From: a virus
Length of the DNA: 30,526 nt
Reading direction: 5' to 3' (one strand)
Virus record (IMG/VR): IMGVR_UViG_3300042987_000526
Span: 1 to 30,526 of that record
In this document: positions 1 to 30,526 of the stretch, piece by piece
How positions within the stretch are numbered: the stretch's first letter is position 1
How the letters are laid out: each line of letters begins with the position of its first letter
Position numbers and translations under genes: made by a program
Notes under the pieces: generated by a model
Told to the model about the DNA's origin: nothing
Databases searched by the model: none
What the model saw: only the letters and a program-made list of their open reading frames with translations

Positions 1-185
1 TTGCTCGGGAGCTCTGCGACGTACTTGGTGCCAGGCCGGCGGCGCATGCCACCCTGCGGCTGGATCAGGACATTGGTGGCCTTCGCCAGCGCGTTGTTGT
101 AGGCCTGCAGGTCGACTCGGGCCCGCAGCAGGGGATCGAGCTCGCCCGTCGAGAAGTTGCTCTGCAGGTCGACGAAGCGCGGCAT
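1..185 (-). CDS. Tail tube protein B (T7 gp12-like), N-terminal part, cut by window edge
   Basis: Only the first 61 codons are present; the frame is open to base 1. The ATG at 185-183 overlaps the TGA of the upstream tail tube A gene by one base (TGATG). The N-terminus reads MPRFVDLQSNFSTGELDPLL, followed by a QPQGGMRRRPGTKYV segment. The order 'N-F-S-x-GEL-x-P-L, then PQGG-x-x-RRPGT' is typical of the large tail tube / nozzle protein that follows tail tube A in T7-like virions. In that family it forms the lower tail tube through which DNA leaves. The C-terminal part of the same family is found at the other end of the window (30367-30526), so the gene is probably split by the window boundary. 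Confidence in the family is good; the full length cannot be seen. Confidence 0.75.
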   Translation of the reverse strand, partial: MPRFVDLQSNFSTGELDPLLRARVDLQAYNNALAKATNVLIQPQGGMRRRPGTKYVAELPS

Positions 186-799
186 CAGTACCTCACCGCC
201 ACCAGCGTGTAGTCCTCTATCACCCGATTCGGGTTGCCCTGCGCATCCATCTGGCAGGCCTGCCGGAAGTAGCCCCCGCGCATGTTCTCAACCGGGTCGC
301 CCAGCGCCACCCGCTGCCAGCGCAGAGACTTGTCCTGCTGCTCGGTGATCGCCTCGGCAATGTGCCAGGCCATCTGGTATTTCAGCAGCTGCACGAAGTA
401 TTGCGGCATCGCGTACTCAGGCACGCTGTACTGGTAATCGATGAAGACCGCGGTCAGGTTGGTGAGCAGCTGGTCGCCCTGGATCTCCCAATCCTTGTCG
501 ATCGGGGTGCCTACATTGCTGCTCGGGTATACCGCCATCGGGTTGCCCAGGCGATCGCCAGGCAACTGGTAGGCGTACTTCCAATAGCTGCCGGGTGCGG
601 TCACCAGCTGCGCCAGCGCGATCTTCTTCATCGAGAAGCTCCACCGGTACATCGTCAGGGTGGAGTCGCGAACATTGGGGTAGAGCCGGTCGCAGACCGA
701 GCTCGAGTCGGTGCCGTCGTTGAATGAGGTGATCGCCTTTGCGCCCAGCATGAGCAGCGCGTCCGAGCAGATCCTGACTCCCGTATCACCTGCAGCCAT
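185..799 (-). CDS. Tail tube protein A (T7 gp11-like), 204 aa
   Basis: This is a 204-aa protein starting MAAGDTGVRICSDALLMLGA. A CSDALLMLGAKAITSF-type N-terminus followed by DRLYPNVRDSTL and YRWSFSMKK is the usual opening of gp11-like tail tubular A / gatekeeper proteins. These form the ring that joins the portal to the tail tube. Its length is close to T7 gp11 (196 aa). It sits exactly where expected, after the capsid gene and directly before the tail tube B gene, which it overlaps by one base. Expression probably needs read-through of the hairpin at 817-857, or a promoter not seen here. No signal peptide or membrane segment is visible. Confidence 0.85.
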   Translation of the reverse strand: MAAGDTGVRICSDALLMLGAKAITSFNDGTDSSSVCDRLYPNVRDSTLTMYRWSFSMKKIALAQLVTAPGSYWKYAYQLPGDRLGNPMAVYPSSNVGTPIDKDWEIQGDQLLTNLTAVFIDYQYSVPEYAMPQYFVQLLKYQMAWHIAEAITEQQDKSLRWQRVALGDPVENMRGGYFRQACQMDAQGNPNRVIEDYTLVAVRY

Positions 800-1154: not shown

Positions 1155-1994
1155 TTATTCGCGGCAGGTGATCTGAACGATGCCCTCGGCGTCGATCGCA
1201 ACCGCGTTGGCCGAGAACACCTCGTTGACCAGCCAGCTGGTCTTTTCCGGGATGTAGTTGATCTCGGTGCGCATTGCGATGCCCTCGCCGTAGCCGATTG
1301 CCTGCTGATGGAACGCGAAGACCTTGCGGTCACTCGAACCATCGATCGGCAGCCCGCCCTCGGCACGGTCGCCCAGAACGTGGAAGGTGAAGCCCAGGAA
1401 CGTGTTGAGCTCGCCCTGAACCAGCGCCTTGACCGTGTTGAAGTCGCTGCTGGTGACCGAGGTCTCAGACAGCAGGTTCGACAGGTTGTTGGCGTGGATG
1501 ACAATGTGACGGCCCTCGGGCGGCACGTTGTTCTTGTCGAGCAGGCGCTTCGCGTCGCGGAGCTTGGCCAGGTTCAGGTTGGTGTTCGAGCCGCCGATGC
1601 TGTTCGCAACGGTGGCGCTCGTGCCCGAGTTGACCAGCGCGTCGATGATCATCTGATCCTGACGGCGGCCGACAGCGGCGGCGACAACCTGCACAAGCTC
1701 CTGGCGCTCGTCGAAGTTGACCTTGGCCTGGCTGAAGATGTCCGAGTATTCGGCAGCATTCCAGTCCTGCAGGGTCAGCGTGACTTGCGAGAAGCTCGCG
1801 TTGATGGGGGTTACGTCGGTCTGCGGAACGCGCAGGGTAGCGGTGCCTTTGCCGACCTTGGGAAACTTGACGATAGAACCTTCGACTCCGCGACGCGCCC
1901 GGGTGGCCCCGACAAGCATTGCCTTGCCTTGATAGGCTTGCTTGACCTCAGCGTCGAAGAGAGTCACGAAGGCATTGGAAAGACCAATAGCCAT
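1155..1994 (-). CDS. Major capsid protein, 279 aa
   Basis: The protein starts MAIGLSNAFVTLFDAEVKQA after a GAGGTGATCAA ribosome site. A compact 279-aa protein without a long cleaved N-terminal domain, placed after the scaffold gene and before tail tube A, fits the HK97-fold coat of this phage type. The segments DWNAAEYSDIFSQAKVNFDE, RRQDQMIIDALV and IPEKTSWLVNEVF resemble the spine-helix and axial-domain pattern of such coats. It is preceded by its own sigma70-like promoter (2140-2169) and a strong terminator (2177-2204). It is therefore transcribed apart from portal and scaffold, which suits the high copy number needed. The assignment rests on context and overall style, not on a unique catalytic motif. 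Confidence 0.85.
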   Translation of the reverse strand: MAIGLSNAFVTLFDAEVKQAYQGKAMLVGATRARRGVEGSIVKFPKVGKGTATLRVPQTDVTPINASFSQVTLTLQDWNAAEYSDIFSQAKVNFDERQELVQVVAAAVGRRQDQMIIDALVNSGTSATVANSIGGSNTNLNLAKLRDAKRLLDKNNVPPEGRHIVIHANNLSNLLSETSVTSSDFNTVKALVQGELNTFLGFTFHVLGDRAEGGLPIDGSSDRKVFAFHQQAIGYGEGIAMRTEINYIPEKTSWLVNEVFSANAVAIDAEGIVQITCRE

Positions 1995-3007: not shown

Positions 3008-3267
3008 AGGTTCCTCGCTCTTTTGATCCGCGCCTGGATGTCTCGCACCACCGACCGCTGACCGTCAGCGTAGTAAGCGTGCGAGGGGTCGGTGCCGGGC
3101 ACGGCGATCGGCACGTCGACGTACATGTGGCGCAGCCAGATCAGGAGCTTCTGGCCGTCCTCTCCGTTGAATACGCGCAGCACCAGGCGGTCTAAATCGT
3201 CGCGCTTCTGGTCTGCCTCGCGGATGTCGGGCGTCGCGAGCGCCTCGATCTCGTCCCAGCCGCTCAA
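3004..3267 (-). CDS. Bbp19-like small phage protein, 87 aa
   Basis: An 87-aa protein lies between portal and scaffold, overlapping both by ATGA. The core, RLVLRVFNGEDGQKLLIWLR followed by an aromatic/histidine segment (DPSHAYYADGQR) and a basic C-terminus, resembles the Bbp19-like family. That family is named from Bordetella phage BPP-1 and occurs at this same position. Its function is not established. The location suggests a role in head assembly or in joining the portal to the shell. No membrane segment or signal peptide is seen. Confidence 0.65.
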   Translation of the reverse strand: MSGWDEIEALATPDIREADQKRDDLDRLVLRVFNGEDGQKLLIWLRHMYVDVPIAVPGTDPSHAYYADGQRSVVRDIQARIKRARNL

Positions 3268-4856
3268 ACGGGTGCCCCTGCTGGCGCTGCAGCCTGGGCC
3301 TGCATGGCCGCCTGCTGCATGGCCATCGCTTCCATCTGCCGGTTTTGTGCCTCTTCCATGAGCACGGCACGCTCTTCGCGGGTGTTGCGCACCGTGGCCG
3401 GCACGCCGAGCTTGTCGCCGATGTAGTCGACCACCGCGTCACCCTTGAGCGCCAGCTGGCCGTCAGGCCCGAACGCCTGCATCAATTGCGCGTACTGGAG
3501 GATGGCATTAACCTCCTCCATGTTCTGCGCTTGTGCGAGCGGCGCGACGGGGGTGACTTTTACCTCGAGACCGTTGACACGCAACGGCAGGTCGATCATT
3601 CCGCGCTCGTCCATGACCTCGAGGATCTTGGCCACTAGCGGGATCATCGTCTCGTTGATGAGGCGTCCGAACGCCGAGCCCAGGTTCTGCGCGAGCTCCT
3701 TCATCCGCTCGACGATCTCGGTGGCCGAGCGGGCGCTCATGTTGTCCGGCGGCAGCGACTCGTCCAGCAGGATCCGCTTGATGCTGGCCGTCAGGTCGTT
3801 GATCACCAGCTGCGACACGTTGAAGTCGCCGGAGCGGGGCAGGGGTTGCAGGCTCGCGCCCTGGGGGCCGCCATTGCGCGCCACCGGGATGATCGCGCCC
3901 GGCACGATCTTGACCGTCGCGGGGTTCAGCACGCCATCGTCGGCAGCCGTGTAGACGCCGGCCACTGCCAGGCTCGCATTCTTGAGCAGGAGCTCCTTGG
4001 TCTTGTTCAGCGTCTTGATGTCGGGCAGCGCGGTGATGAGCGGGCCGCGACCATAGATCTCACCGGCCACCTTCATGTAGCGCGAGATCACCCAGGGGCT
4101 CGTCTTGCGCCGCCGGTAAACGATCTCCTGCTTCGAGATCTTGTCGATGACGTGGTAGCAATAGTCGCCGCGCTTGTAGTCGTGGATCGTGGCCTCGACC
4201 AGGTCGACATCATCGGTGGGCTTCTGCTCGATCCGCATCTGCACTTCAGCCGGCAGCTTCGCATCCGGCCACTGGCGCTGGATCGACTCACCCTTCATGC
4301 GCATCTTGCGGTAGACGTTGTCCACCTGGCCGTTCGCGCCTTCCTCGTAGCAGACCAGGAACAGCGGCACCGGGATGAAGTTGATCGGCGTCACGTCGTC
4401 GCCAGGCTGCACCATCATGCAGGCCGTGCCGACAGCGAGATCCAGCAGGAACTCGCCGATCGCGATGTCGAAATTCGACTGCTTGAGCACGGCGAACATC
4501 TTGTCGCCGTATGCGTCCAGGATCGCCTGCGCTTGCTGCGTGCGCTCGATCGGGATAGACGGGCCAGGCTCAAGCCTCGACCACTTGCGCTGCGGCGGGA
4601 AGACCACCGACTGCAGCCGGTTCGCAAACCGCTGGGTGCTGTTGATGGCAGTGGAGTCGAAGACGCGCTGCATCTTCTTCGTGCCGGTGCTGCCACCTTC
4701 CCAGATGCCGTACAGCTGGCGCTGCGGGAGCGCGAACTCGTAGGCGTCCTGGTAGATCTGCTGAAACTCGTCTTTCTTCTTCTGGGCCGCGTCGTGGCGC
4801 TTGAGGATCTGCTCTGGCGTCAGCCGCATCCCGCCTGTGTTCTTGTCGTATTCCAT
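3264..4856 (-). CDS. Portal (head-tail connector) protein, T7 gp8-like, 530 aa
   Basis: The chosen start is ATG 4856-4854 (MEYDKNTGG), preceded by GAGG at good spacing and one base after the stop of the upstream gene. The reading frame extends further upstream, but that part is a shadow. At 530 aa the length matches the T7 head-tail connector (536 aa). Recognisable segments are TPEQILKRHDAAQKKKDEFQ and YEFALPQRQ near the N-terminus, VFDSTAINSTQRFANRLQSVVFPPQRKW, and YMKVAGEIYGRGP in the middle. Later come RILLDESLPPDNMSARSATE and a Q/A/M-rich C-terminal tail. Twelve copies would form the dodecameric DNA channel to which terminase and tail tube A bind. It overlaps the Bbp19-like gene by ATGA. 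Confidence 0.92.
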   Translation of the reverse strand: MEYDKNTGGMRLTPEQILKRHDAAQKKKDEFQQIYQDAYEFALPQRQLYGIWEGGSTGTKKMQRVFDSTAINSTQRFANRLQSVVFPPQRKWSRLEPGPSIPIERTQQAQAILDAYGDKMFAVLKQSNFDIAIGEFLLDLAVGTACMMVQPGDDVTPINFIPVPLFLVCYEEGANGQVDNVYRKMRMKGESIQRQWPDAKLPAEVQMRIEQKPTDDVDLVEATIHDYKRGDYCYHVIDKISKQEIVYRRRKTSPWVISRYMKVAGEIYGRGPLITALPDIKTLNKTKELLLKNASLAVAGVYTAADDGVLNPATVKIVPGAIIPVARNGGPQGASLQPLPRSGDFNVSQLVINDLTASIKRILLDESLPPDNMSARSATEIVERMKELAQNLGSAFGRLINETMIPLVAKILEVMDERGMIDLPLRVNGLEVKVTPVAPLAQAQNMEEVNAILQYAQLMQAFGPDGQLALKGDAVVDYIGDKLGVPATVRNTREERAVLMEEAQNRQMEAMAMQQAAMQAQAAAPAGAPV

Positions 4857-4857
4857 A

Positions 4858-5181
4858 TCAAGCCTCGGCCTTGTACTGCTCGAGCAGATTGCGACCCTTC
4901 GCGGCCAGACGCTGCGCAGCAGCTGCGGTGCGCGGAGCAGGTTCGCCCCATGCTCGAGCCGCCAACGCAAGCCGCGTCGGCTCACCCTTGTCGTTGACCA
5001 GCGGGCCTGACGGATTGGTGTAGAACCGCGTGAGGAATGAACCCTTGCGGCGAGCACGCTGGCCGGTAGGGCTCGACTCCTTCACGCCGGGCTGGAGGTT
5101 TCCGCTCTCGCCCGTCGACTCGTAATGCCGCCTGCCGGCCTCTGTCAGCCCGCCTTCTGGATCCTTGTAGCGAGCTTTCAT
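4858..5181 (-). CDS. Conserved phage protein (DUF6321-like), 107 aa
   Basis: This 107-aa basic protein starts MKARYKDPEGGLTEAGRRHY. It carries a GNLQPGVKE segment and then a RRKGSFLTRFY ... GPLVNDKGEPTRLALAARAWG segment. The pattern 'AGR-x-x-Y, N-L-x-PGVK, RRK-S-F, GP, PTR-x-AL-x-x-WG' is like the DUF6321 family of phage proteins. Its molecular role is unknown. The stop lies two bases before the portal start, so the two are probably translated together. Its position just before portal in the late operon suggests a role in DNA packaging or virion assembly, but nothing in the sequence proves it. Confidence 0.65.
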   Translation of the reverse strand: MKARYKDPEGGLTEAGRRHYESTGESGNLQPGVKESSPTGQRARRKGSFLTRFYTNPSGPLVNDKGEPTRLALAARAWGEPAPRTAAAAQRLAAKGRNLLEQYKAEA

Positions 5182-8604: not shown

Positions 8605-9162
8605 TCAGGAAGACGGTGATACCGGAGTGGTATTGGCAGATCGCCAGTCCGTTCTGTCCCAGTTCCCCTTGCCGTGGTTGCAGGGGTGGCAGAGGATCTG
8701 CAGGTTGTCTATGTCCAGGGCGAGGTGAGGGTAGTGCTTTCGGGGTTTTATGTGGTCGACGTTGATGGTGATACCGTCGGCCGGCGTCGCGCCGCAGCAC
8801 ATACACCTGGCACCGTACTTCTTGATGGCCAGCATCCGCAGTTGCCGCCACTCGAAGGTATCGAGGAAAGCATCGGTCTTCGGGTTGACCTTGCTCTGCG
8901 GTTTGGTTGTGACGCATCGCACCCACTCGTCGGAGCGATCGCGGACGATCCTAGCGTGGATGGCATGAACGACGTGCAGATTGCGAATCACCCAGCCCCT
9001 GGCGGTGACGCCGGGCGGCATCGGGAACCCATCCTTCGCCAGGGCTCTACAGGTCAACTCGTAGATGCTGACGTTCTTCTCGGAGGAATGGCCGATCCTG
9101 CTCTTGGTGTAAGCGTGCAGCTTGCTCTTCTTGATGGGCACCTTGTAGCGCACCTGGGGCAT
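8605..9162 (-). CDS. HNH endonuclease, 185 aa
   Basis: A 185-aa protein has an AAGGAG site before its ATG. The C-terminal half is a classic zinc-containing HNH fold. It has CMCC at residues 120-123, DHIKP at 136-140 with the first catalytic histidine, and a DNLQILCHPCNHGKGNWD segment at 151-168 with the second zinc pair and the N/H residues. The basic N-terminal 100 residues have no recognised domain; no RuvC motif or IscB-type PLMP motif is seen. HNH proteins next to the large terminase often take part in packaging or are homing nucleases. This one is preceded by a 438-base structured non-coding block, suggesting that the two entered together. Confidence 0.85.
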   Translation of the reverse strand: MPQVRYKVPIKKSKLHAYTKSRIGHSSEKNVSIYELTCRALAKDGFPMPPGVTARGWVIRNLHVVHAIHARIVRDRSDEWVRCVTTKPQSKVNPKTDAFLDTFEWRQLRMLAIKKYGARCMCCGATPADGITINVDHIKPRKHYPHLALDIDNLQILCHPCNHGKGNWDRTDWRSANTTPVSPSS

Positions 9163-9600: not shown

Positions 9601-11145
9601 TCAAGCAAACACGTCAAAGTCCGCACTGGCAGTGGTCTGATGAACCATCGGAGCACCGGCCATGTTGCTTTTCCGCACCATCCGGTTGTACTCGCCGCCA
9701 CCGAGCATCAGGTAGCCAAAGCTGTCGCCAATGTGCGAGTGCTCGTTCTTGTTGGGTGCGTCTCTGAATCTCTCCTGGCCGGCACCGATGCTGATGCGCT
9801 TGAAGTGATACCCGCCTCCCAGAGCCTTTCTGAGGAGCTTGCAGGAGCGATTGACGATCAGCCCAGGCTTACCCATTACCAGCCTCTGCATGGGGCTTGC
9901 AGCGGCCTCTCGTCTCACCTTGAAGTCGTTGCTGGCAGTGGGTTGCGCTTTCAGTCCCAGGGTGCGCAGGAAGTCAAAGGAGGTGACCTCATAGATCGCG
10001 TCTCTCGCCATACCGGCTGGGTCACCCCAGAGCATGACCTGGTGGTTGGGGTATCGCTGGTTGAGCTCTGCGAGCAGCTGCAGGCCGAACCGCTCGAGGC
10101 CCATGTCGAAGGTCACGATCTCGTGGTGGATCAGCCAGCGCCCGTTGGGCAGTCTCTGGCCGATGGTGGCTGCAGGGGTGAGACCAAAGTCCAGGCCCAC
10201 CTGGATGGGTACGCCAGGCTCGACCTCAGTCTCACCGCTCATGGTGGCGTCGTCGTACTCTGGCCAGACGGGTCTGCCCTCTTGAACGTAGGTGTACTGG
10301 CCCGCGGCATAGCACCGGATCCAGTCCAGGTTCTTACCCGGGAGCATCTGCTGGTAGTAGCCGGCGGGGAGGTTGTTGATGTTCTCTGCGGCCGGGTTGG
10401 TCTTCCACCACTTGCCGGCAGCCAGCATATGGTCGTTGGCCTCGGGGTTGTCCGGCAGGTCGTCTGCGGGAACCTCGATGACACCGCCTGGTTGCTTCCA
10501 GAACTTCCAGCCTCGGGGCTTTTCCTTCTCGGCCATGTTGTGCCACCAGTGGTCATCATCCATTGGGTTTGTATCCATCCAGATGCCGTGCCAGGACGCG
10601 CCGCCATCACGCTTCGTTGGATACCGGCCCACCCGGTGCGTGAGGCCGTCTATGACCGCTTTGGGGAGCTCACGGGCCTCGTTGACCCATGCGCCTGTGA
10701 GCTCTAGTGAGAGCAGCTTTCTAACGTCCTTGGGCTGATCGAGCGCCAGAAAGATGACCTCGCAGTCGATACCGGCAGCATCACCGCGGGCGGGCAGCCG
10801 AATGTGATGGGTGATGGGTGGCGTCCAGAGCATGTTGCCGAACGTCGACTCGGGGAACAGATCCAGCCAGGTCTTGATGGTGGTGGTCTTCAGCATGGGG
10901 TAGCTGTTGCGTACCACGGCCCAGCGCGAGTACCGGATGTTGTCGATGGGGGAGGGCTTCTGTTTGACGGCCTGGATGAAGATCTTGGCCGCGCAGGCGT
11001 AGCTCTTCCCGGATCCGACCGGCCCCATGACACCGGCCACGAACTGTCTGGATTGGATGAAGTCGTAGACCACCGGGCTCTCACTGAAGTCCAGCTTCAG
11101 TCCGGTGACGCCGACCTGCTTCGCGCTCTGTTCTTTGGTTCTCAC
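9601..11145 (-). CDS. Terminase large subunit, 514 aa
   Basis: This is the ATPase-nuclease motor that packs DNA into the prohead through the portal. It starts with GTG 11145-11143, supported by GAAGGA upstream and a GTGA overlap with the previous gene. The Walker A motif is GPVGSGKS at residues 41-48. The Walker B / catalytic glutamate region is AWVNEAREL (about 152-160). A DTNP segment at 191-194 is consistent with motif III. The RNase H-like nuclease domain shows acidic residues at GLDFG (D319), WGDPAG (D375) and HSHIGDSFGY (D474). The length and the ending ADFDVFA look complete, so the downstream structured block does not split the gene. The small subunit lies 1.25 kb upstream with four small genes between. 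Confidence 0.95.
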   Translation of the reverse strand: MRTKEQSAKQVGVTGLKLDFSESPVVYDFIQSRQFVAGVMGPVGSGKSYACAAKIFIQAVKQKPSPIDNIRYSRWAVVRNSYPMLKTTTIKTWLDLFPESTFGNMLWTPPITHHIRLPARGDAAGIDCEVIFLALDQPKDVRKLLSLELTGAWVNEARELPKAVIDGLTHRVGRYPTKRDGGASWHGIWMDTNPMDDDHWWHNMAEKEKPRGWKFWKQPGGVIEVPADDLPDNPEANDHMLAAGKWWKTNPAAENINNLPAGYYQQMLPGKNLDWIRCYAAGQYTYVQEGRPVWPEYDDATMSGETEVEPGVPIQVGLDFGLTPAATIGQRLPNGRWLIHHEIVTFDMGLERFGLQLLAELNQRYPNHQVMLWGDPAGMARDAIYEVTSFDFLRTLGLKAQPTASNDFKVRREAAASPMQRLVMGKPGLIVNRSCKLLRKALGGGYHFKRISIGAGQERFRDAPNKNEHSHIGDSFGYLMLGGGEYNRMVRKSNMAGAPMVHQTTASADFDVFA

Positions 11146-16065: not shown

Positions 16066-16713
16066 ATGACCAAGTTCGTTGCTTACTTCCGCGTGTCCAC
16101 CGAGCGCCAGGGCCAGTCCGGCCTTGGCCTCGAGGCCCAGCAAGCAGCTGTGAAACAATACGCCGACGCAATCATTCACAGTTTTACCGAGATCGAGTCA
16201 GGCAAGCACGATGACCGGCCCCAGCTGCAGGCTGCCATCGCAATGTGCAAGCGCAGTGGCGCTGCCCTGCTGATCGCCAAGATCGACCGCCTATCGCGCC
16301 AGGCTGCGTTCCTGCTGACGCTCCGCGACTCTGGCGTGCAGATCGTCGCCGCCGACATGCCGCACGCCGGCACGCTCGAGTTTGGCATCCGCGCCGTCGT
16401 CGCCCAGCATGAGCGGGAGGAGATCAGCCGCCGCACCAAGGCCGCCCTGCAGGCCGCCAAGGCCCGCGGCGTGAAGCTCGGGTGCCCGACCCCCGAGATC
16501 GGCAGCGCCGCCGGCATTGCCGTCATCCAGGCCCGCGCCAGTGCCTACGCTACACGCCTGGCACCGGTCATCGCCGACATCAAGCGTGCCGGCTGCACCA
16601 CCCTCCGCGAGATCGCTGCAGCCCTTCAGGCCCGCGGCATCTCCACCCCCCGCGGCGGCACCAACTGGGCGCCGTCGCAAGTTCGCAACCTGCTGGAGGC
16701 CTGCAATGCGTGA
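16066..16713 (+). CDS. Serine recombinase (resolvase/invertase family), 215 aa
   Basis: This enzyme cuts and rejoins DNA through a covalent 5'-phosphoserine link. The N-terminal catalytic domain has AYFRVSTERQGQSGLGLEAQ with the nucleophile S11 and R9, and AKIDRLSRQ (residues 71-79) with D74, R75 and R78. The long E helix carries EREEISRRTKAALQAAKARG. The C-terminal 50 residues (REIAAALQARGISTPRGGTN, ending SQVRNLLEA) form a DNA-binding winged or helix-turn-helix domain. At 215 aa it is in the small resolvase class, not the large serine integrases. It could resolve genome multimers, invert a segment, or integrate; no attachment sites are recognisable. AGAGGA precedes the ATG. Confidence 0.88.
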   Translation: MTKFVAYFRVSTERQGQSGLGLEAQQAAVKQYADAIIHSFTEIESGKHDDRPQLQAAIAMCKRSGAALLIAKIDRLSRQAAFLLTLRDSGVQIVAADMPHAGTLEFGIRAVVAQHEREEISRRTKAALQAAKARGVKLGCPTPEIGSAAGIAVIQARASAYATRLAPVIADIKRAGCTTLREIAAALQARGISTPRGGTNWAPSQVRNLLEACNA

Positions 16714-18148: not shown

Positions 18149-18324
18149 CCCCCCGCGACCTGACCAGCCTGGAAGACGCGCATGCCCGCGCCGTGCGGGC
18201 AGTACGCGCAGCCACCATCACTGCCAGCGAAGACGAAGCGATGGAGCTCGTCGACTCGATCACCCTCGTCGTACTCGAAACCATCAAGGCATACCTGCCG
18301 GAAGGCGAAGCATCATGCAACTGA
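18145..18324 (+). CDS. Small helical protein between exonuclease and RecT, 59 aa
   Basis: A 59-aa protein starts MTPRDLTSLEDAHARAVRAV. It contains two amphipathic helices and ends YLPEGEASCN. The start overlaps the exonuclease stop by ATGA, and the end overlaps the RecT start by ten bases. This close coupling supports expression. No family is recognised. It might assist or regulate the exonuclease-annealing pair. Confidence 0.6.
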   Translation: MTPRDLTSLEDAHARAVRAVRAATITASEDEAMELVDSITLVVLETIKAYLPEGEASCN

Positions 18325-19457
18325 CCACCCATCGCGGGTTCGCACCCGCCACCCTCACCGAGGCCATGCAGTTCAGCGAGCACCTGGCCGCCAGCACGAT
18401 GGTGCCCAAGCAGTACCAGGGAAAACCCGCAGACATCCTGGTCTGCGTGCAGTGGGGCTATGAGATCGGCCTCGCCCCCATGCAGGCGCTGCAGAACATC
18501 GCCGTGATCAACGGCAAGCCTTCAGTCTACGGTGACGCCGCGCTCGCTCTGGTGCAGGCCTCGCCGCTCTGCGAGGGCATCGATGAGCACATTGAGAATG
18601 AAGGCACCCCGAACCCGGTGGCCGTCTGCATCGCCCGCCGCAAGGGACGCATGCCGGTGGTCGCCAGGTTCAGCGTGGAAGACGCCAAGCGTGCCGGTCT
18701 ATGGGGCAAGCAAGGCCCGTGGCAGGCCTACCCAAAGCGCATGTTGCAGATGAGGGCCAGGGGCTTTGCCCTGCGCGACGCCTTCCCGGACGTTCTCAAG
18801 GGTTTGATTACTGCAGAAGAGGCGCAGGACTATCCGAGCGACGATCGCCAGCCGGCCAAGGACATCACGCCGCGCAACCCGCTGGACGCGATCAAGCCGG
18901 CCATCCCAGCGCCACCCTTGGTCGAGCAGACCAGCGACCCGGTGGTCATCGAGCAGGTGTTCGCCGCCGACCAGGCCGCCGATGATGCTGCCGTCAGCGC
19001 AGCCGAGGCCGATGCTGGGATGTCTACCAAGGGCTGGGTCACGAAGCATGCCCAACCTGTCGAGGATCCTGGCTTGAACGATGCCGAGGCCGACGCCGAG
19101 CGCGAGGCCATCATCGCCGAGTCAGGCGAGCCGCCAGCCGAGGCTGCACCTGGTTACTTCCAGATCTGGGTGCCCGGCAAGGAGACCCCGCTCGCGGTCT
19201 ACAAGACGCTGATCGAGTGGGCCGAGGCCTACGATGCGCTGGGAGACAAGACGGCCAGGGCAGGCCGGGCAGGGGCTCGCACCAGGATGACCAAACTGCG
19301 CGAGCTCCGCGAGTGCAACGAAGAGCTCCTGCAGCGTGTCGACCTGGTGCGGAAGACCGCGCTGATGGCGAACTACAGCCAGCGTCTGGCGGCGCTGGGT
19401 GCAGCATTGACCCCCGAGGAGCGTGAGGCCGAGGCCGCCTCACGCAAGGTTGCTTGA
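18315..19457 (+). CDS. recT: RecT-family single-strand annealing protein, 380 aa
   Basis: This protein coats resected 3' strands and anneals them to complementary DNA. The N-terminal 180 residues hold the RecT core: EAMQFSEHLAASTMVPKQYQ, then KPADILVCVQWGYEIGLAPM, QALQNIAVINGKPSVYGDAA and WQAYPKRMLQMRARGFALRD. The last two carry the typical 'G-x-P-S-x-YGDA' and 'P-x-RM-x-x-x-RA' elements. The remainder is an acidic, alanine/aspartate-rich linker and a helical C-terminal domain, making the protein longer than E. coli RecT (269 aa). It ends convergently with the endolysin gene; the two reading frames overlap by 18 bases. Confidence 0.88.
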   Translation: MQLTTHRGFAPATLTEAMQFSEHLAASTMVPKQYQGKPADILVCVQWGYEIGLAPMQALQNIAVINGKPSVYGDAALALVQASPLCEGIDEHIENEGTPNPVAVCIARRKGRMPVVARFSVEDAKRAGLWGKQGPWQAYPKRMLQMRARGFALRDAFPDVLKGLITAEEAQDYPSDDRQPAKDITPRNPLDAIKPAIPAPPLVEQTSDPVVIEQVFAADQAADDAAVSAAEADAGMSTKGWVTKHAQPVEDPGLNDAEADAEREAIIAESGEPPAEAAPGYFQIWVPGKETPLAVYKTLIEWAEAYDALGDKTARAGRAGARTRMTKLRELRECNEELLQRVDLVRKTALMANYSQRLAALGAALTPEEREAEAASRKVA

Positions 19458-19970
19458 CCCGTCTGTCATCTTGCCGGCTGCGGTGGCCACCTCGGTCACC
19501 CGCCGGCCCCAGCCCTTGCCGAAAGTGTCCCAGGTCGGCAGACGCTGCAGGAAATCCAAGCGCACCGCTTGGTATTGGGACACGATTTCGTGGGCAGGCA
19601 TGGCCGCGACAGCCCGCAACGTGCCAGGCCCGATCGAACCATCAGCAGTCACGCCGACAACCTGCTGCAGCCACTTGGCCGCACGGCCTGGCCCGCTGTT
19701 GATGGCGGCATCAAAGACGCAGTAGTCGACGCCTGCCGGCAGTTCATCGCCGGAGATCTGGTTCCAATACTTGGCCTTGTACATGGGCGCAACGTCCTCA
19801 GGCGTGAGCGCACGCATCGCGGCCTCGTCGACCTCGTGCTTGACCCACTCCTCCCAGACTCGCTTGGTCACGCCCAGGTTGGTCATGCCGCCAGGGTCGC
19901 GGGGATGATTACTGAAACCGCCTTCGTGATGCAAAACGGCAGCCAATGCTTGTTCAAAGTTCTCTCGCAT
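19440..19970 (-). CDS. Endolysin, GH108-type muramidase, 176 aa
   Basis: This enzyme degrades peptidoglycan at lysis. The start ATG 19970-19968 (MRENFEQALAAVLHHEGGFS) has AGGA at good spacing; the frame upstream belongs to the HNH gene overlap. The catalytic motif HHEGGFSNHPRDPGGMTNLG contains the family's E-G-G (E16). KYWNQISGDELPAGVDYCVF and DAAINSGPGRAAKWLQQVVG are standard for the N-acetylmuramidase GH108 fold. VTADGSIGPGTLRAV is the short peptidoglycan-binding segment. No signal peptide is visible, so release would depend on the holin upstream. It is the last gene of the leftward string. Confidence 0.92.
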   Translation of the reverse strand: MRENFEQALAAVLHHEGGFSNHPRDPGGMTNLGVTKRVWEEWVKHEVDEAAMRALTPEDVAPMYKAKYWNQISGDELPAGVDYCVFDAAINSGPGRAAKWLQQVVGVTADGSIGPGTLRAVAAMPAHEIVSQYQAVRLDFLQRLPTWDTFGKGWGRRVTEVATAAGKMTDGSSNLA

Positions 19971-20460
19971 GTTCGATCCTGTGGCAGTTTGCACATAGCA
20001 ATACACATCGCTCAATCTCTGCAGCGATGCGTTCAACGCTAGCATTTGAAATCAGGGCTGAAGGGTTGTTGTCTTTGTCACCGACATGATGGAAATCAAA
20101 AGCAGCAGACGGGAAAACACCATTGCATCGTTGGCAGCTTCCGCCCATCGCGTCAATCAATGCATCCTTAATGGTCTGCTGCCGCGCCATCTTGAAATGC
20201 CTTGCGCATCTCATCCACCCGCCCTTGCCATTGACCGTATCGCCACATTCAATGCATAAACCTTTGTTGCCGAGTGCTCGCACAGGATCTGATAAACGTG
20301 CGCCACGCTTGAATCGCAGGTAGTGAGCGTTGCAGAAACCTTTTGCAATCGCATCATGAGGGCAGTCGTCAACAGTGCATGATCCGCGAGCCCCATCATG
20401 CAATCTAGACCTAGCCAAATGCAAACGGTCTTTCATTGCCTGTAATAGCTCGTCCTTCAT
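19954..20460 (-). CDS. HNH endonuclease inserted in the lysis cassette, 168 aa
   Basis: The start ATG 20460-20458 overlaps the holin stop by ATGA. The N-terminal part carries cysteine/histidine clusters (CTVDDCPHD, GFCNAHYLRFKRGARLSD, CIECGDT, MRCARHFK), typical of DNA-binding fingers in phage homing nucleases. The C-terminal part is an HNH domain: SCQRCNG, AFDFHHVGDKDNNPSALIS and ERCVLLCANCHRIEHAREL. The gene is clearly richer in A+T than its neighbours, and its end overlaps the endolysin start by 17 bases. Both points suggest recent arrival between holin and endolysin. It is most likely a free-standing homing endonuclease. Confidence 0.85.
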   Translation of the reverse strand: MKDELLQAMKDRLHLARSRLHDGARGSCTVDDCPHDAIAKGFCNAHYLRFKRGARLSDPVRALGNKGLCIECGDTVNGKGGWMRCARHFKMARQQTIKDALIDAMGGSCQRCNGVFPSAAFDFHHVGDKDNNPSALISNASVERIAAEIERCVLLCANCHRIEHAREL

Positions 20461-23243: not shown

Positions 23244-26081
23244 TCAGTCAGGTTTGTAATACCGGCCATTGGCCCTGCGCAACTCTTTGAGCTCGTCGAT
23301 CTTCGCTCGTAGATTTGGATCTTCAGCGAGCAGCATCTTCTTTGCAGTGTCCATGTATGTGGAATGAACACTCAATATTCGCTGTTGCTGGTCACCAGTA
23401 TCAAGTAGATCAAAACCTGGTGTCTGTACCAAGTCCAAGAGCTTCTGCTTCGACGGGAGCTCTTTGCCGTAGATCGTCAGCAGCCGGTTGTACTGCATGG
23501 CATCCATCTCGATGCCATCGATCTTGCGCTCCGGCATACCGACCGGCGATCCCATGCGCACCAGCGCGTCATCGACCTCGCTGAACTGCGACGGGCTCAC
23601 GCGAGTCGGCAGCACAAGTTCGTAGGCCTTGCCCTGGCCAGAGAGCACTGGGTCACCCCACAGGTTCAGCGCGGGCGGCAGCGCCTCGCTTGCATACGGC
23701 AGGCGCGAGCGGTAGCGGTTGAACGCTTCATAGAACCCGCGCACGCCCATCGGCAGATCCGGGTTGGTGCGCACGTCGCGCTGCATTGGATCGATCAGGC
23801 GCTCGATGCTGGCCACCAGCGAACCATATGCGCCAGCCGGAGAGCCGCCGATCACGAAGCCGCCGTACTGCTTGGCGAGCTCGTTGACGATCTTCTTGCC
23901 GTCGACCTGGCCCTGCTGGTTGGTGCCGATCAGCTTGGCAATGTCTGCGATGCCCTGCAGGTAGGGTTGCTCTTTCAGGTACTCATAGAGCCCATAGGTC
24001 GCACCCAGAAAGACCTGCTCGATCTTTGTTGAGTCCTTCTCATGCCTTGCATATTCAGCATAGTCGGCGGCAATCGCGAGCAGAGCAGACACCGGCTCGA
24101 GGCCTGCATAGCTGTAGTATTCGTCGCCGATCTTGAAAGAGTAAGGCTTCCACCCGTCGCGCAGCAGCGCCTCGCGGTCGGCCTTGCGCTCCGGGCCGCG
24201 GCCAGTCAATAGGCCTTCGGATGCTATCGCTCCGAATGTGGCCAGCACCGCAGATCCGAGCGTTACTTTGGCGAGCGCCATGTCGCGGTAGATGCCACCC
24301 TGCGCGATCTCGTTCCTCCACTTGCTGGATAGCGGCGCGAACGGGGTGCGCTCAATCACCTCAAGGCCGATGTTGGCTGGCGTCTTGAAAAACGGCACCA
24401 CCACTTTGAGGGCCGGTGTGTTGAACACGCGCTGCAGGCTGGCAAGAGCAGGCGGCAGATCGGAGGTGAATGTGCCGCGCCTGGCGAAGTCCATCGCCGC
24501 CTCGTCAAGATCTCGCGGCGGGTTTGCCAGCAGATCGGTCACCTCGTTCTGGGCCTTGGCAATCGCATCAGCTTCCGGCATGCCGGCATCGATCGCCTCG
24601 CGGTAGACCTGCTTGCCGCGCCTGGTCACCAGCGTGTTGATCTGCATCCGGTAGAACACGCCCTTGAAGAACTCGTCCTCGGTCATCAGGGCGCGGCCGG
24701 GGAGGGTTACCGCCGTGCCGTAGTAATCGAAGGCCTTGCCCATCCAGGTGTTTTGATCGACGCCCGTCACGCGCTGCAGCGTTTCGCCCATGCTCTCCAT
24801 CGGCGTGCGCTGCATCTCGAGCTTCGACTTCAGATCGCTGGGCTGATTCTTCTTGAACGCTTCAGCCGCCAGTTGCATGCCCTCGACTACGCCATTGCGC
24901 AGCGACTGCACCATCGTCAGCGCCTCGTCGTAGCCGATCTTCTCAGCCTCAGTACCAGGCACCAACTGCTTCCAACTGCGCACGCCAGCCGGCAGAGTGT
25001 TGGAGTAGAACGCAGCCACCAGGCGCTCGGGGATCTGGTAGATCCCGAACATGCTGTTGCCCAGAATGTTCTTCGCATGCGATACCGGGCTCGACAGCAG
25101 GCCGTTGATGAACGTCGAGAACCAGATGTCCTTGACGCCGGACAGCATCGACTTCTCGACCAACTGGTTGCGTGCAGCGCGGGTCTCAAGCGACAGATAG
25201 GCACGGGCCATGTCGGTCAGAGAGCCTTCGCCGCCAAACTCGTCGAGCACCCCGCGGATTACGTCGGCGCTGCTGTCACGCGGGATGCGGAACACCGCAA
25301 GCGCACGGGCAGTCTCGGTCTGGATACCCTTCACGCCCTTCTGGATCATGCCGTGCAGCGCGACTTGCTGGCGCAGCTGCAGCTTCTGGGCGTCGGTGGC
25401 CTGGCCATCAGCCACCAGCTTGAACAGCCGGTCGAGTTCGATGGCGCTGGCATCAAGGGTGTCCAAGGCCCGCTTGGTATCAACGGCATTGGCCATCATC
25501 TTGCCGTTGCTGTCGACCAGCCTAGACAAAAACTTCTCGTCAATCCCGGCAGCATTTGCCTGGGCGCTGATCTCTTTGAAAGTGACTCTCTCGGTCTTGA
25601 TGCCAAGAGCGTCAGCCACGCCACCAATGACGCCTGCAGCATCACGGTTTGAGTACATGCTCAGATTAAAGGCTTCCTCGGGCGGCTTGCCGGTCAGCGG
25701 GCTGAACTTCTGGCGGCGGCTGACCGCAGCTTCGACCTGCTCGGTGAGCTCCTGGCTGGCCTCTGGGATAACCCGGAACCGGCCCTCGGTGGCCATCGGC
25801 GGGAGCTCGTCGACCGGAGCCCTGGCGGCTTCCGGGACAATGTTGCGCACGGCCTTGGGCTCGGCCTGCCTGGCAGCCCTGCGGATGATGGTGCCCAGGC
25901 CTGCAACCTGCAGCGGGTCTTCCATCGATGGGGTGCCGGGCTGGTCGGCGACCTCCGGCATTTCGATCGGCTGAGCCTGCTCACCCGGCATGGGCTCGAG
26001 CGGCATCTCGCCAGGCGGCGAGGCCTCCGGCAGGATCTGCTCGAGGCGCTGTTCGAGGGGGGTGTTGGGGATGGCCATCAC
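23244..26081 (-). CDS. Large internal virion / ejection protein, 945 aa
   Basis: This is the longest gene in the window. The first 110 residues are proline/glutamate-rich and look disordered. A helical region follows (NRDAAGVIGGVADALGIKTE, RALDTLDASAIELDRLFKLV). The central part has FSTFINGLLSSPVSHAKNIL, VTLPGRALMTEDEFFKGVFY, ANPPRDLDEAAMDFARRGTF and VVPFFKTPANIGLEVIERTP. Such 'LSSP-x-[ST]HA-x-N' and 'FKTP-x-N' elements are common in large polyvalent and internal virion proteins of podoviruses, which are ejected into the host with the DNA. One hydrophobic stretch (LAKVTLGSAVLATFGAIAS) may cross the membrane. It occupies the place of T7 gp16 and overlaps the previous gene by ATGA. No lytic transglycosylase motif is seen. 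Confidence 0.7.
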   Translation of the reverse strand: MMAIPNTPLEQRLEQILPEASPPGEMPLEPMPGEQAQPIEMPEVADQPGTPSMEDPLQVAGLGTIIRRAARQAEPKAVRNIVPEAARAPVDELPPMATEGRFRVIPEASQELTEQVEAAVSRRQKFSPLTGKPPEEAFNLSMYSNRDAAGVIGGVADALGIKTERVTFKEISAQANAAGIDEKFLSRLVDSNGKMMANAVDTKRALDTLDASAIELDRLFKLVADGQATDAQKLQLRQQVALHGMIQKGVKGIQTETARALAVFRIPRDSSADVIRGVLDEFGGEGSLTDMARAYLSLETRAARNQLVEKSMLSGVKDIWFSTFINGLLSSPVSHAKNILGNSMFGIYQIPERLVAAFYSNTLPAGVRSWKQLVPGTEAEKIGYDEALTMVQSLRNGVVEGMQLAAEAFKKNQPSDLKSKLEMQRTPMESMGETLQRVTGVDQNTWMGKAFDYYGTAVTLPGRALMTEDEFFKGVFYRMQINTLVTRRGKQVYREAIDAGMPEADAIAKAQNEVTDLLANPPRDLDEAAMDFARRGTFTSDLPPALASLQRVFNTPALKVVVPFFKTPANIGLEVIERTPFAPLSSKWRNEIAQGGIYRDMALAKVTLGSAVLATFGAIASEGLLTGRGPERKADREALLRDGWKPYSFKIGDEYYSYAGLEPVSALLAIAADYAEYARHEKDSTKIEQVFLGATYGLYEYLKEQPYLQGIADIAKLIGTNQQGQVDGKKIVNELAKQYGGFVIGGSPAGAYGSLVASIERLIDPMQRDVRTNPDLPMGVRGFYEAFNRYRSRLPYASEALPPALNLWGDPVLSGQGKAYELVLPTRVSPSQFSEVDDALVRMGSPVGMPERKIDGIEMDAMQYNRLLTIYGKELPSKQKLLDLVQTPGFDLLDTGDQQQRILSVHSTYMDTAKKMLLAEDPNLRAKIDELKELRRANGRYYKPD

Positions 26082-28009
26082 TGCGCTCCAGGCTGCGGAG
26101 CGCGGCCGCCCCGATTCACGCGAGTCGGATTTCCGGCGGCAGGCTCAACTCGTCCAGGTCGTCCGGCACCCCCTCCGGGTATGCCAGCCCCAGATAGTTC
26201 TCCCGCGTTACCGGTAGCCCCGCCTTCTGCAGCAGCTTGACCACGAAGTCCACCTGACTCCCACTCTGGGGCGCGGATTCCACCGGCTGCTTTGAAGACT
26301 TCATTTCGGGCCTCATCGATTGAGAGATCACCATTCCGATATTTTACCCAGATGTCGTCGATGCGGCGAGCGTTGGCTGCCGTTTTGAACGTGTCCGGGA
26401 ACAACCCGCGCACCGCTTCCCAGGTGATCGACTGCATCTCACGCGGCAGCACGCCACGCTCTGCAGCTGCTCTGCGATACGCCTCGGTATACAGGCCGTA
26501 GGTTCCCTGCACGCCAGTGATGCTGCTGTTCTTCGGGCCGACCTCTCCCTTCATTCCAGAACCGAAATTGTGGAGCACCTCGCGGCTGTTGCCTGACAGC
26601 GGGCGCAGCAGGCCAGCCGCCACCGCATGCGTGTCGATCGTGACGTGGCCAGCAGGATCGGTCGGCGCGTAGATGTTGTTGTAGAAGTTCCGCACTTTGT
26701 GCTGGCCGCCGAGCATCGTGCTGATGTTCGCCTTGCTCGGATCATCCAGGATGGCGATCGCCTTGCCGATCTCGTTGAGCGAGCCCCAGGCGACGCTGTA
26801 ATCCTTGCCAGACTGAGTGCGCCTCAGACCCGCCAGATCGCCCTCAGGCGTGACGATCTGATGGCCGCGGGGGTTGAATGCCTGGTCGAACGTGCGCAGC
26901 CACAGAGCCCGTTCTTCCGGCCCCTCGAGCTCGGCGAAGCTCTTGTTGCGCACCAGGTCGAGCACCGGCTTGTACTTCGGATCCTTCCAGATCTCTCCGG
27001 CGATCTTGTCCATGTCGGCGTCCCACTTGAACGCCCACTGATTCTGCGAGATGTCGATCACGCGCTGCGCGAGCGACACGTTCATGAACCAGTCCTTCTG
27101 CGGCGACAGCACGGCAAGCACTCCGGCCAGCGCCTGGTCGGGCTGGTTGTACTCGCGGCCCCAGCGATCGACGATGTTGCGAGCGCCGTCGTACCAGAGC
27201 TTGCTGCGCTGGCGCGTGGCTTCCGGCACCTGGTCGTACAGGTAGAGCAGGTTGTCCTTCACCTCGTTGATGAAGTCCTCGGACACCTGGTTGACATCGG
27301 TGGCATCTGTCTTGATGTTGGGGTAGGCCTTCACCAGATTGACGTTGTGCGTGAACGCTGCCGGGTCTGCCTTGGCTGCGTCCAGGCCGATTACCAGATT
27401 CTGCGTGAGCGGGTTCTCGGTGGCCTTCACTGCGGTCGGCAGCCTGGTGCTCACCACGTTTGCGCCGATCTTCCTGGCAAGCGACCCGACACCACCCTCG
27501 GCCTCGGTCGGCGTAGCGGCGACCGCAGCAGCAGCGGCAGGCAGCGCACCAGGGATCGCCTTTGCCACCGTGCCGGCAGCCTTGGCAGCGGTGCCAACGA
27601 TCGGCAGGTTGAGGAGCTCGGCAGCCTCGGGCTTCAGCCCTGCGGTGCCGCCAATACCGCCAGCGCCACGGGTCGGCATGAACCCGTAGCTCATGTCCTC
27701 GATTACTTTGCCGGCCTCGCCGACCGTCAGATCCTTGAGCGTCACCCGGCCCAGCATCGGGATGTCGAGCCCGACCTTGTCCAGCTGCACGCCCGCAGCG
27801 GTGAGCGCCTCGCCGAACCGGCCGAGCGCCTGCTGAAACATGTTGCGCGGGATCTCGCGGATCGAGCCGGAGTCGGCCGGCACGTTGGTCATCGTCTGCG
27901 CGGGAGCCTGCGCCACCTGCATCGGCTCCGGAGCGGGCTCGGCCACCGGCTCGCCTGGGAACTGCAGATCGGCCATGCGCTGCAGGTAGGAGCTCTCGAC
28001 TGACATCAT
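26078..28009 (-). CDS. Internal virion protein with putative HhH/DUF7178-like domain, 643 aa
   Basis: The start is ATG 28009-28007, overlapping the upstream gene by ATGA. Residues 1-50 are proline/alanine-rich. Residues about 140-170 are alanine-rich and could touch membranes. The region about 260-520 looks like an enzyme-type domain: RWGREYNQPDQALAGVLAVL with SPQKDWFMN, then GGQHKVRNFYNNIYAPTDPA, GHVTIDTHAVAAGLLRPLSG and YGLYTEAYRRAAAERGVLPR. The order 'AGVLA-x-x-SPQ-x-x-W, K-VRNFYNNI-x-x-P, VTIDTHA' recalls HhH-GPD-like folds and DUF7178-like phage domains. The C-terminus is glycine/proline-rich and basic. It is likely carried in the head and ejected; any catalytic activity is unproven. Confidence 0.6.
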   Translation of the reverse strand: MMSVESSYLQRMADLQFPGEPVAEPAPEPMQVAQAPAQTMTNVPADSGSIREIPRNMFQQALGRFGEALTAAGVQLDKVGLDIPMLGRVTLKDLTVGEAGKVIEDMSYGFMPTRGAGGIGGTAGLKPEAAELLNLPIVGTAAKAAGTVAKAIPGALPAAAAAVAATPTEAEGGVGSLARKIGANVVSTRLPTAVKATENPLTQNLVIGLDAAKADPAAFTHNVNLVKAYPNIKTDATDVNQVSEDFINEVKDNLLYLYDQVPEATRQRSKLWYDGARNIVDRWGREYNQPDQALAGVLAVLSPQKDWFMNVSLAQRVIDISQNQWAFKWDADMDKIAGEIWKDPKYKPVLDLVRNKSFAELEGPEERALWLRTFDQAFNPRGHQIVTPEGDLAGLRRTQSGKDYSVAWGSLNEIGKAIAILDDPSKANISTMLGGQHKVRNFYNNIYAPTDPAGHVTIDTHAVAAGLLRPLSGNSREVLHNFGSGMKGEVGPKNSSITGVQGTYGLYTEAYRRAAAERGVLPREMQSITWEAVRGLFPDTFKTAANARRIDDIWVKYRNGDLSIDEARNEVFKAAGGIRAPEWESGGLRGQAAAEGGATGNAGELSGAGIPGGGAGRPGRVEPAAGNPTRVNRGGRAPQPGAQ

Positions 28010-29706
28010 GGCGTTACCCCATCGGCCTGGTCGAGCAGGCGGCGCACGTTTCTCAATTCGTTGGCATTCAGCTTGCCGCTCTTCTCCAGAGCAGGCAGTG
28101 AGTCGCGGGTGATCTTGCCGCCGGCCTTCTTCTCCCAGACCGTCTCGAGCGACTGGCGGGCCTGCCGCGCACCCTCACTATTGCGGCGCTTCTCGAGTCC
28201 GTCTTCCATCTGCTGCAGGATCTGGCGGGGAGTAACAACTTTGCCCTCGCGTGCGGCCTGCGCCTGGATGTCGAGCGCCTGCGCCTGGAGCTCACTGCGG
28301 CGCTTGAACTCTTCGCCTTTTGGATCGAGCACCACCACGCTGCCAGGGATCACCGGAATGCCAGCCAACCGGCTGATGCCGCGATCGAGCTCCGACTGGT
28401 CGCGGCGATCTTCGGAGTTCAGCAGCTTGAGCGCGCCCACCGCGTCCTTCGGGTGTAATCCTTTGCCGACCATCGACCAGATCTGATCCGGCTGCGTGAT
28501 CGTGTTGTTGTATATGCCCTGCGTGACATTGAACAGCACGCTGGCATTGCTCTCGGCTTGACTTGGAGAGAGCAGATCTTTCAGCGTACCGATTGGAACC
28601 GCTCCAGCCGGCAAATCGATGAGCCTGCCTATCAGTGCTTGGCGATTCGGATCATCTACTGGCAGCGGAAAGATCTGCTCCAATAGATTGATCGCTACTC
28701 TTTCTGCATTACGGTTAATCCGATCACGCTCGTTCTTAGCCAGCGTCTCGCGCTGGTTCACCGCCACCATGAAGTTGGCCGTGACTTTGGCCACTGCGTC
28801 AAAGTCGTTGGCGATCAATTGCCGCAACACTGGGCTCATTTTCCCGGCGTCGCCATTACGCAGACGCTGGAGAGTTGTTTCTGGGCTGACCGAGTTCTCG
28901 CGCTCTACCAGGTAGCGCGTCAGTGCGTTGATCTTGGCATTGCGCAGCGCCGTCTCGAACTTGGTGCTGTACTCCTTCTGCAGGGCGGCATCGCCCAGCA
29001 GCACCGCCTGCATGGTTACGTTTCGCCTGAACACGTCGGCGAGCTCGTCGATCCGATCCGGTTGCTGCGACACCGTGGCCTCAAGCAGGCGCACGCCGTT
29101 GTCGAAGTCCATGTCGAACTTGGCAATGCGCTGCGCCTTCTCTCGCTTGAGCTCGGCCTCATAGGCGGCGTTGAGCACGGTGTTGCCGTGCGTGGCCATC
29201 GTCGCCCGGAACTTGATGGCAGCCTCTGGATCCTGGCTGGCCAGCGCCTTGCTGTATCCATCGGTGAATGTGGCGATCTTCTGGCTGATCTGCTCGCCAG
29301 TTGCCTTGCCGCTCTGGATCTCAGTCAGCATCTTCGAGAGCTCGTTGCGGCCCTCGATCTCAAAATGGCTCGCCAGCTGCAGCCCGCGGGCCTTGCGCAG
29401 CGCATCGGTGTAGATGTTGCCGGCCAGGCCAGGGACGATCGTCGCGCCGTTCTTGGCGAGCTCGATTTGCTCCGGCGTGATCGGGTTGTCGGCGGCGAAC
29501 TGCAGCGCCTCCTGCTGCGCGAGCTTGCCGGCCTGCTGAAATGCGCTCTCGCTCATGCGGTCGAGCATCTGCGCCAGCGTGCCTGCTTGCTGGGCTGCAG
29601 CGCGTGCGGCGATCGGCTCGGCAACCTGCAGCTGCGGCTGCGCCATCGGCACGCCACCCTGCGCACCGCGCAACATGATCTGACCGGATTCGAGCATCGT
29701 CGCCAT
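28006..29706 (-). CDS. Internal virion protein, T7 gp15-like position, 566 aa
   Basis: This 566-aa, almost wholly helical protein has long charged coiled-coil stretches. The N-terminus has ARAAAQQAGTLAQMLDRMSE and QQEALQFAADNPITPEQIEL. The middle has RLLEATVSQQPDRIDELADV, ALRNAKINALTRYLVERENS and RQLIANDFDAVAKVTANFMV. The C-terminus is rich in Q, R and K, and ends LLDQADGVTP. The content and the place between the gp14-like and larger internal proteins match T7 gp15-type ejection proteins, which form a tube in the periplasm. The identification is by architecture and order, since such proteins diverge quickly. It overlaps both neighbours: four bases downstream and one base upstream. Confidence 0.65.
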   Translation of the reverse strand: MATMLESGQIMLRGAQGGVPMAQPQLQVAEPIAARAAAQQAGTLAQMLDRMSESAFQQAGKLAQQEALQFAADNPITPEQIELAKNGATIVPGLAGNIYTDALRKARGLQLASHFEIEGRNELSKMLTEIQSGKATGEQISQKIATFTDGYSKALASQDPEAAIKFRATMATHGNTVLNAAYEAELKREKAQRIAKFDMDFDNGVRLLEATVSQQPDRIDELADVFRRNVTMQAVLLGDAALQKEYSTKFETALRNAKINALTRYLVERENSVSPETTLQRLRNGDAGKMSPVLRQLIANDFDAVAKVTANFMVAVNQRETLAKNERDRINRNAERVAINLLEQIFPLPVDDPNRQALIGRLIDLPAGAVPIGTLKDLLSPSQAESNASVLFNVTQGIYNNTITQPDQIWSMVGKGLHPKDAVGALKLLNSEDRRDQSELDRGISRLAGIPVIPGSVVVLDPKGEEFKRRSELQAQALDIQAQAAREGKVVTPRQILQQMEDGLEKRRNSEGARQARQSLETVWEKKAGGKITRDSLPALEKSGKLNANELRNVRRLLDQADGVTP

Positions 29707-30365
29707 CAGAGCGTCCTCGCAGCGCCAATAAGGCCTTGTGTCAACGTCGCGCCAGCAAGTAGACCGCCAGTCCGGCGAGCAGTGGCTGCAGCGAACTCAA
29801 GCCCGCCAGCCTGTCGCTGGGCCTGGAAGCGCGAAAGGGTCGCCTGCAGTTCTGTCGACTGCAGCATGGCGCTGGCATCCTCAAATCCGAGCACCTGCGC
29901 CGTCAGCGCGTTGAGCTCGGCGATGTCCACGTCGCGCATCACAGCCTGCACGTTGGCATTCTGGATGCCCTGGATGCTGCCCTCGCCAAGCGCCACCCCA
30001 GAGGCTGCAGCCCGAGCACGCGCCGCCGCGTTGGTCTTGCGGAGATTGCGCAGCAGCGTGTTGCCAGCGATCTTGTAGTTCATCGCCTCCATGTCGGCAC
30101 GCCGCAACATGCGGCCGGCCTGGATGGTTGCGTACTGCTCCGACATGTCGGCCCTGATCTCGGCCACCGCGAGCGTGTCGCGGGCCTGCACCAGGTAGGC
30201 TGTCTGCTGGTTGATTGCCTGGGCCTGCTGCGCCTGCGCTGCGCCATACGCGCCGATCAGGCCAGCAACGCCATACATCTGCCCAGTGGACAGGAACGGA
30301 GCGGCTGCGGCTGCAGCTGGTGCGCCTCCTACAGAACCCGGATCGTAGCCACCAACGTCGGCCAT
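29706..30365 (-). CDS. Internal virion protein, T7 gp14-like, 219 aa
   Basis: The start is placed at ATG 30365-30363 (MADVGGYDPGSVGGAPAAAA), two bases after the stop of the tail tube B fragment. A hydrophobic segment (QMYGVAGLIGAYGAAQAQQA) is followed by long alanine/glutamine/arginine-rich helices. NAAARARAAASGVALGEGSI, followed by QGIQNAN, is the typical 'A-R-AA-SGV-x-x-GEGS' element of gp14-like ejection proteins, which form the outer-membrane part of the DNA ejection channel. The length is close to T7 gp14 (196 aa). It follows tail tube B as in T7. Confidence 0.75.
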   Translation of the reverse strand: MADVGGYDPGSVGGAPAAAAAAPFLSTGQMYGVAGLIGAYGAAQAQQAQAINQQTAYLVQARDTLAVAEIRADMSEQYATIQAGRMLRRADMEAMNYKIAGNTLLRNLRKTNAAARARAAASGVALGEGSIQGIQNANVQAVMRDVDIAELNALTAQVLGFEDASAMLQSTELQATLSRFQAQRQAGGLEFAAATARRTGGLLAGATLTQGLIGAARTL

Positions 30366-30366
30366 C

Positions 30367-30526
30367 CTATGTCCCCGAATAAACCGCGATGCGGTAGTCA
30401 AGACCCAGCAGCGTCATCTTGAGCGGCAGCGTCTGCGAGATCTCAATCGCCTGCTCGCGGTCATAGCCCAGCACGCCGTTCACGCGCTTGATGCCGGTGA
30501 AGGTCGGCACCGGCTCGTCGAGCAGC
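30367..30526 (-). CDS. Probable C-terminal end of tail tube protein B (T7 gp12-like), cut by window edge
   Basis: The frame is open to the window edge and gives 52 codons before TAG 30369-30367. The sequence LDEPVPTFTGIKRVNGVLGY is followed by DREQAIEISQTLPLKMTLLG and LDYRIAVYSGT. The ending 'R-x-x-x-I-x-x-x-Q-x-x-PL-x-x-TLLGL-x-x-x' is the usual C-terminus of large tail tube / stabilisation proteins. T7 order also places this gene just before gp14. The N-terminal part of the same family ends the window on the other side, so the two fragments probably belong to one gene. Confidence 0.65.
   Translation of the reverse strand, partial: LLDEPVPTFTGIKRVNGVLGYDREQAIEISQTLPLKMTLLGLDYRIAVYSGT

Follow-up and report, generated by a model that had tools for sequence, protein, structure and literature searches.

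Methylophilales phage MEP301 (MW452941) has a 34.8-kb genome with a GC content of 40%, which was assembled as one circular contig and was read by its authors as reflecting circular permutation or terminal repeats (PMC8024684). Burkholderia phage BcepC6B (Ryyoungvirus) is a 42-kb phage carrying integrase, repressor and DNA polymerase genes, in which the virion genes run from portal through capsid, tail A and tail B to the internal proteins. In T7, the gene for tail tubular protein B (gp12), whose family is represented by PHROG 376, follows that for gp11.

The window, that is, the whole stretch of DNA analysed here, is the entire IMG/VR virus record IMGVR_UViG_3300042987_000526 (30,526 bases). 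By its genes, the phage can be placed within the known MEP301 kind: the genome is colinear with that of MEP301, and the genes for TerL (74% amino acid identity), the major capsid protein (MCP, 80%), portal (72%) and tail tube A (57%) are homologous. Once the window ends are joined across the gap between them, the two genomes have in common the order TerS, TerL, portal, scaffold, capsid, tail A, tail B, internal proteins and tail fibre, together with a single divergent and a single convergent region, so that the T7-like virion order and the single regions of each type anticipated in the original prediction agree with the MEP301 map. The window differs from MEP301 in its GC content (~62%), genome size (~32.5 kb here), lysis genes and annealing protein. 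With BcepC6B it has in common the order from portal to internal proteins and a TerL of 41% identity, but not the 42-kb size or the integrase, repressor and DNA polymerase genes. Its terminase, resembling those of MEP301 and BcepC6B, sets it apart from T7, as does the lack of a T7-type RNA polymerase among the window genes scanned. A megablast search with window bases 1-25000 retrieved no close match from the genomes of isolated phages. The features considered are as follows.

1-185, minus strand: gp12-like tail tubular protein B, N-terminal part (ATG at 185; 61 codons and 2 further bases; truncated at the left end)
185-799, minus strand: gp11-like tail tubular protein A, encoded immediately upstream of gp12 (match to the tail protein family phrog_394, E 1.6e-34; the MEP301 tail tubular protein A homologue of 57% identity)
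1155-1994, minus strand: major capsid protein (PF19821, E 2.1e-76; the MEP301 MCP homologue of 80% identity)
3264-5057, minus strand: portal/head-tail connector (PF12236, E 3.1e-97; the MEP301 portal homologue of 72% identity)
9601-11145, minus strand: terminase large subunit (the MEP301 TerL homologue of 74% identity)
23244-26081, minus strand: internal virion protein (phrog_6651, E 8.6e-33)
28006-29706, minus strand: virion-position gene, homologue of MEP301 gp26 (25% identity, E 5e-15)
29706-30365, minus strand: open reading frame after gp12, with the same neighbour order in relatives
30367-30526, minus strand: gp12-like tail tubular protein B, C-terminal part (52 codons, stop and 1 base; runs off the right end)

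A family search with the gene at 29706-30365 (minus strand) gave no match; it holds the T7 gp14 position and, by position only, we take it to encode an internal virion protein. The virion-position protein encoded at 26078-28009 (minus strand; 643 aa) has a DUF7178 domain (PF23802, E 1.1e-25). An HNH endonuclease gene (8605-9162, minus strand; PF01844 and PHROG matches) occupies the portal to terminase interval, and a small serine recombinase of the resolvase/invertase type, also found in MEP301, is encoded at 16066-16713 (plus strand). At the convergent point, the 3' ends of the genes for a lysozyme (GH108; 19440-20045, minus strand) and a RecT-like protein (18315-19457, plus strand) overlap by 18 bp. 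Scans of the window for tRNA genes and Rfam families returned no match.

At the level of sequence comparison, the fragments at 1-185 and 30367-30526 (both minus strand) were confirmed as the start and end of one gp12-like gene. This gene lies directly downstream of the gp11-like gene, as gp12 does in T7, and its stop codon (30369-30367, minus strand) is followed by the next gene, starting at 30365 (minus strand). The original prediction had placed one gp12-like tail gene at both window ends, to be checked by comparing the fragments with gp12-like proteins. In a PHROGs profile scan, the N-terminal fragment alone matched positions 6-59 of the 712 in phrog_376 (tail protein; E 1.2e-17) and the C-terminal fragment alone positions 663-709 (E 3.1e-4), the two thus being opposite ends of one family profile in the correct order. 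The MEP301 tail tubular protein B (gp28, 660 aa) gave the same picture, with residues 1-59 aligning to window positions 185-9 (66% identity, E 7e-22) and residues 614-660 to positions 30510-30370 (51% identity, E 2e-11). Among IMG/VR relatives, two protein ends in each of L004, L009, L012 and L022 match both window fragments at 100% amino acid identity, which for L004 and L009 amounts to 61/61 N-terminal and 52/52 C-terminal residues.

The extent of the absent part was determined from relatives collected by searching IMG/VR with the neighbouring gp11-like protein, which yielded 80 loci, 55 of them with both flanks alignable. The gp12 gene is continuous in 55/55, and the interval between the sites equivalent to window bases 1 and 30526 measures 1,626-1,941 bp, a multiple of 3 every time. 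In the nearest relatives (L003, L004, L009, L010, L011, L012, L013 and L022) it is 1,929 bp and the whole gp12-like protein has 757 aa, or 769 in L012, where the script took an earlier start codon; across the 55 relatives the protein length is 656-769 aa, always within the 600-800 aa of the gp12-like family, the window gene lacking the middle. MEP301 gp12 differs, with 660 aa compared with 757 aa and 48% identity to the full L004 protein. L012 also carries a gene for a 175-aa HNH endonuclease (8617-9144; PF13392, E 1.2e-12) between gp11 and gp12, which the window does not have. Of the two alternatives originally offered, the relatives show the first to hold: a multiple-of-three stretch in the range of ~1.5-2.3 kb would lie outside the window, its length being 1,929 bp by comparison with the nearest relatives.

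It is very probable that the contig derives from a MEP301-type podovirus with a circular map and that the assembly has a gap within gp12. The window would then be one linear contig produced by de Bruijn-type assembly of a metagenome, spanning the whole of a ~32.46-kb circular map except 1,929 bp within the gene for the 757-aa gp12-like protein. We infer that the likeliest cause of the break is co-occurring strains splitting the de Bruijn assembly. The sample would have held several strains with runs longer than the k-mer in common at the gp12 ends and with differing middles and next genes, and the assembly graph would branch because strains share the gp12 ends but differ in the middle and the next gene. 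Shared blocks beside divergent neighbours are fragmentation points for de Bruijn assemblers (PMC11443906). In nine close relatives, identity at the right end is 0.992 over the final 150 columns of gp12 and 0.759 just beyond, with exact runs common to strain pairs (median 125 bp, maximum 515 bp); at the left end it is ~0.956 across the 150 columns preceding the end and 0.877 after, falling to 0.778 in the missing part, with exact runs in some strain pairs only (up to 613 bp, median 4). A conserved-variable boundary with shared runs is present at the right window end and partly at the left. The same 1.9 kb would also be absent if the break stemmed from low coverage or a random contig end instead of strain variation, which we regard as rather unlikely: the contig ends of the family are indeed widely scattered, and those of relatives fall within 500 bp of the gp12 start in 10/80 loci compared with 6/80 and 8/80 beside the terminase, with no clear enrichment, but the window ends, at least the right one, lie on conserved-variable boundaries with long exact shared runs.

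The second original alternative, a genome closed at the window ends with a large in-frame deletion in gp12, did not fare as well and is judged highly improbable. Base 1 joined straight to base 30526 does continue the reading frame and gives 114 residues, the frames and coordinates having been reproduced as predicted, but chance alone preserves the frame in one of three joins and an absent in-frame stretch gives the same outcome. A 114-residue product would retain only a small part of a tail-tube protein kept by every relative, none of the 55 having a gap below 1,626 bp. A closed circular assembly would, moreover, carry an end overlap of k-mer length, such as the exact 127-bp direct repeats at the ends of the relatives G003 (32,837 bp), G004 (32,362 bp) and G016 (33,958 bp). 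The two window ends share no exact overlap of 8-199 bp, nor the direct repeat of 20 bp or longer by which a DTR contig is recognised, as expected for an unclosed contig. The deletion is thus disfavoured because no relative has one and because the window is without an end overlap.

Complete relatives assemble as circles cut outside gp12. The sum of 30,526 and 1,929 is 32,455 bp, similar to complete close relatives (32,362 and 32,837 bp). In addition to the three relatives with 127-bp repeats, G005 (32,937 bp) has an end repeat of 117 bp and G007 a near-terminal repeat, and their cut points on the window's map lie at about 17.1 and 15.1 kb (G003 and G004), 11-12 kb (G005), 4.5 kb (G007) and 1.3 kb (G016). 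End repeats of odd length have been described in CheckV as k-mer overlaps from the random breaking of circular templates (PMC8116208). A circle of ~32.46 kb is supported because complete relatives carry such assembler-type overlaps at cut points that differ from one another, which sustains the circular-map part of the earlier "circular or permuted" proposal; the virion DNA would be circularly permuted or terminally repetitive, a cyclic assembly looking alike for both. As the overlaps of k-mer size fall at unrelated places, the cut in gp12 is not a physical genome end. That the virion genome is linear and has its true, fixed ends at the window ends within gp12 has a negligible probability: an end repeat is absent from the record, but relatives with 96-98% DNA identity traverse gp12 uninterrupted, the cuts in complete relatives lie at five positions elsewhere, and a split tail gene would not be expressed whole.

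The last ~195 bp of gp12 form a block, comprising positions 30368-30526 and ~40 bp beyond as seen in L003-L022. Identity over this block is 98.5-100% for the strain pairs that were compared, and some of these pairs diverge by ~20% on its upstream side and by 13-31% on its downstream side. For L003 and L008, identities are 99.8% (gp11), 80.5% (the gp12 middle absent from the window), 99.0% (C-terminal block) and 87% (following gene); for L022 and L004, the middle, the block and the following gene give 95.8%, 99.0% and 69%, respectively. By this pattern, the block reads as a mosaic junction at which tail-tube alleles meet internal-virion alleles. Mosaicism of this kind is usual in tailed phages. 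Recurrent recombination at the block, shuffling these alleles between the phages, is a tentative reading that we would not favour over its negation. There is no sign of a special DNA element in the block, since among 21 diverged cluster representatives its identity at 4-fold sites is 0.517, the overall value being 0.447, and equally high values occur elsewhere in gp12.

The record amounts to about 94% of a circular map of ~32.46 kb and contains gp12 in two parts; the analysis predicts both the place and the size of the absent piece. Users of the record should not infer a truncated tail protein: the split gene is an assembly gap and not a new biological feature, and the phage is otherwise ordinary. 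Its gp12 is most likely intact and would, like its T7 counterpart, form the lower tail tube.
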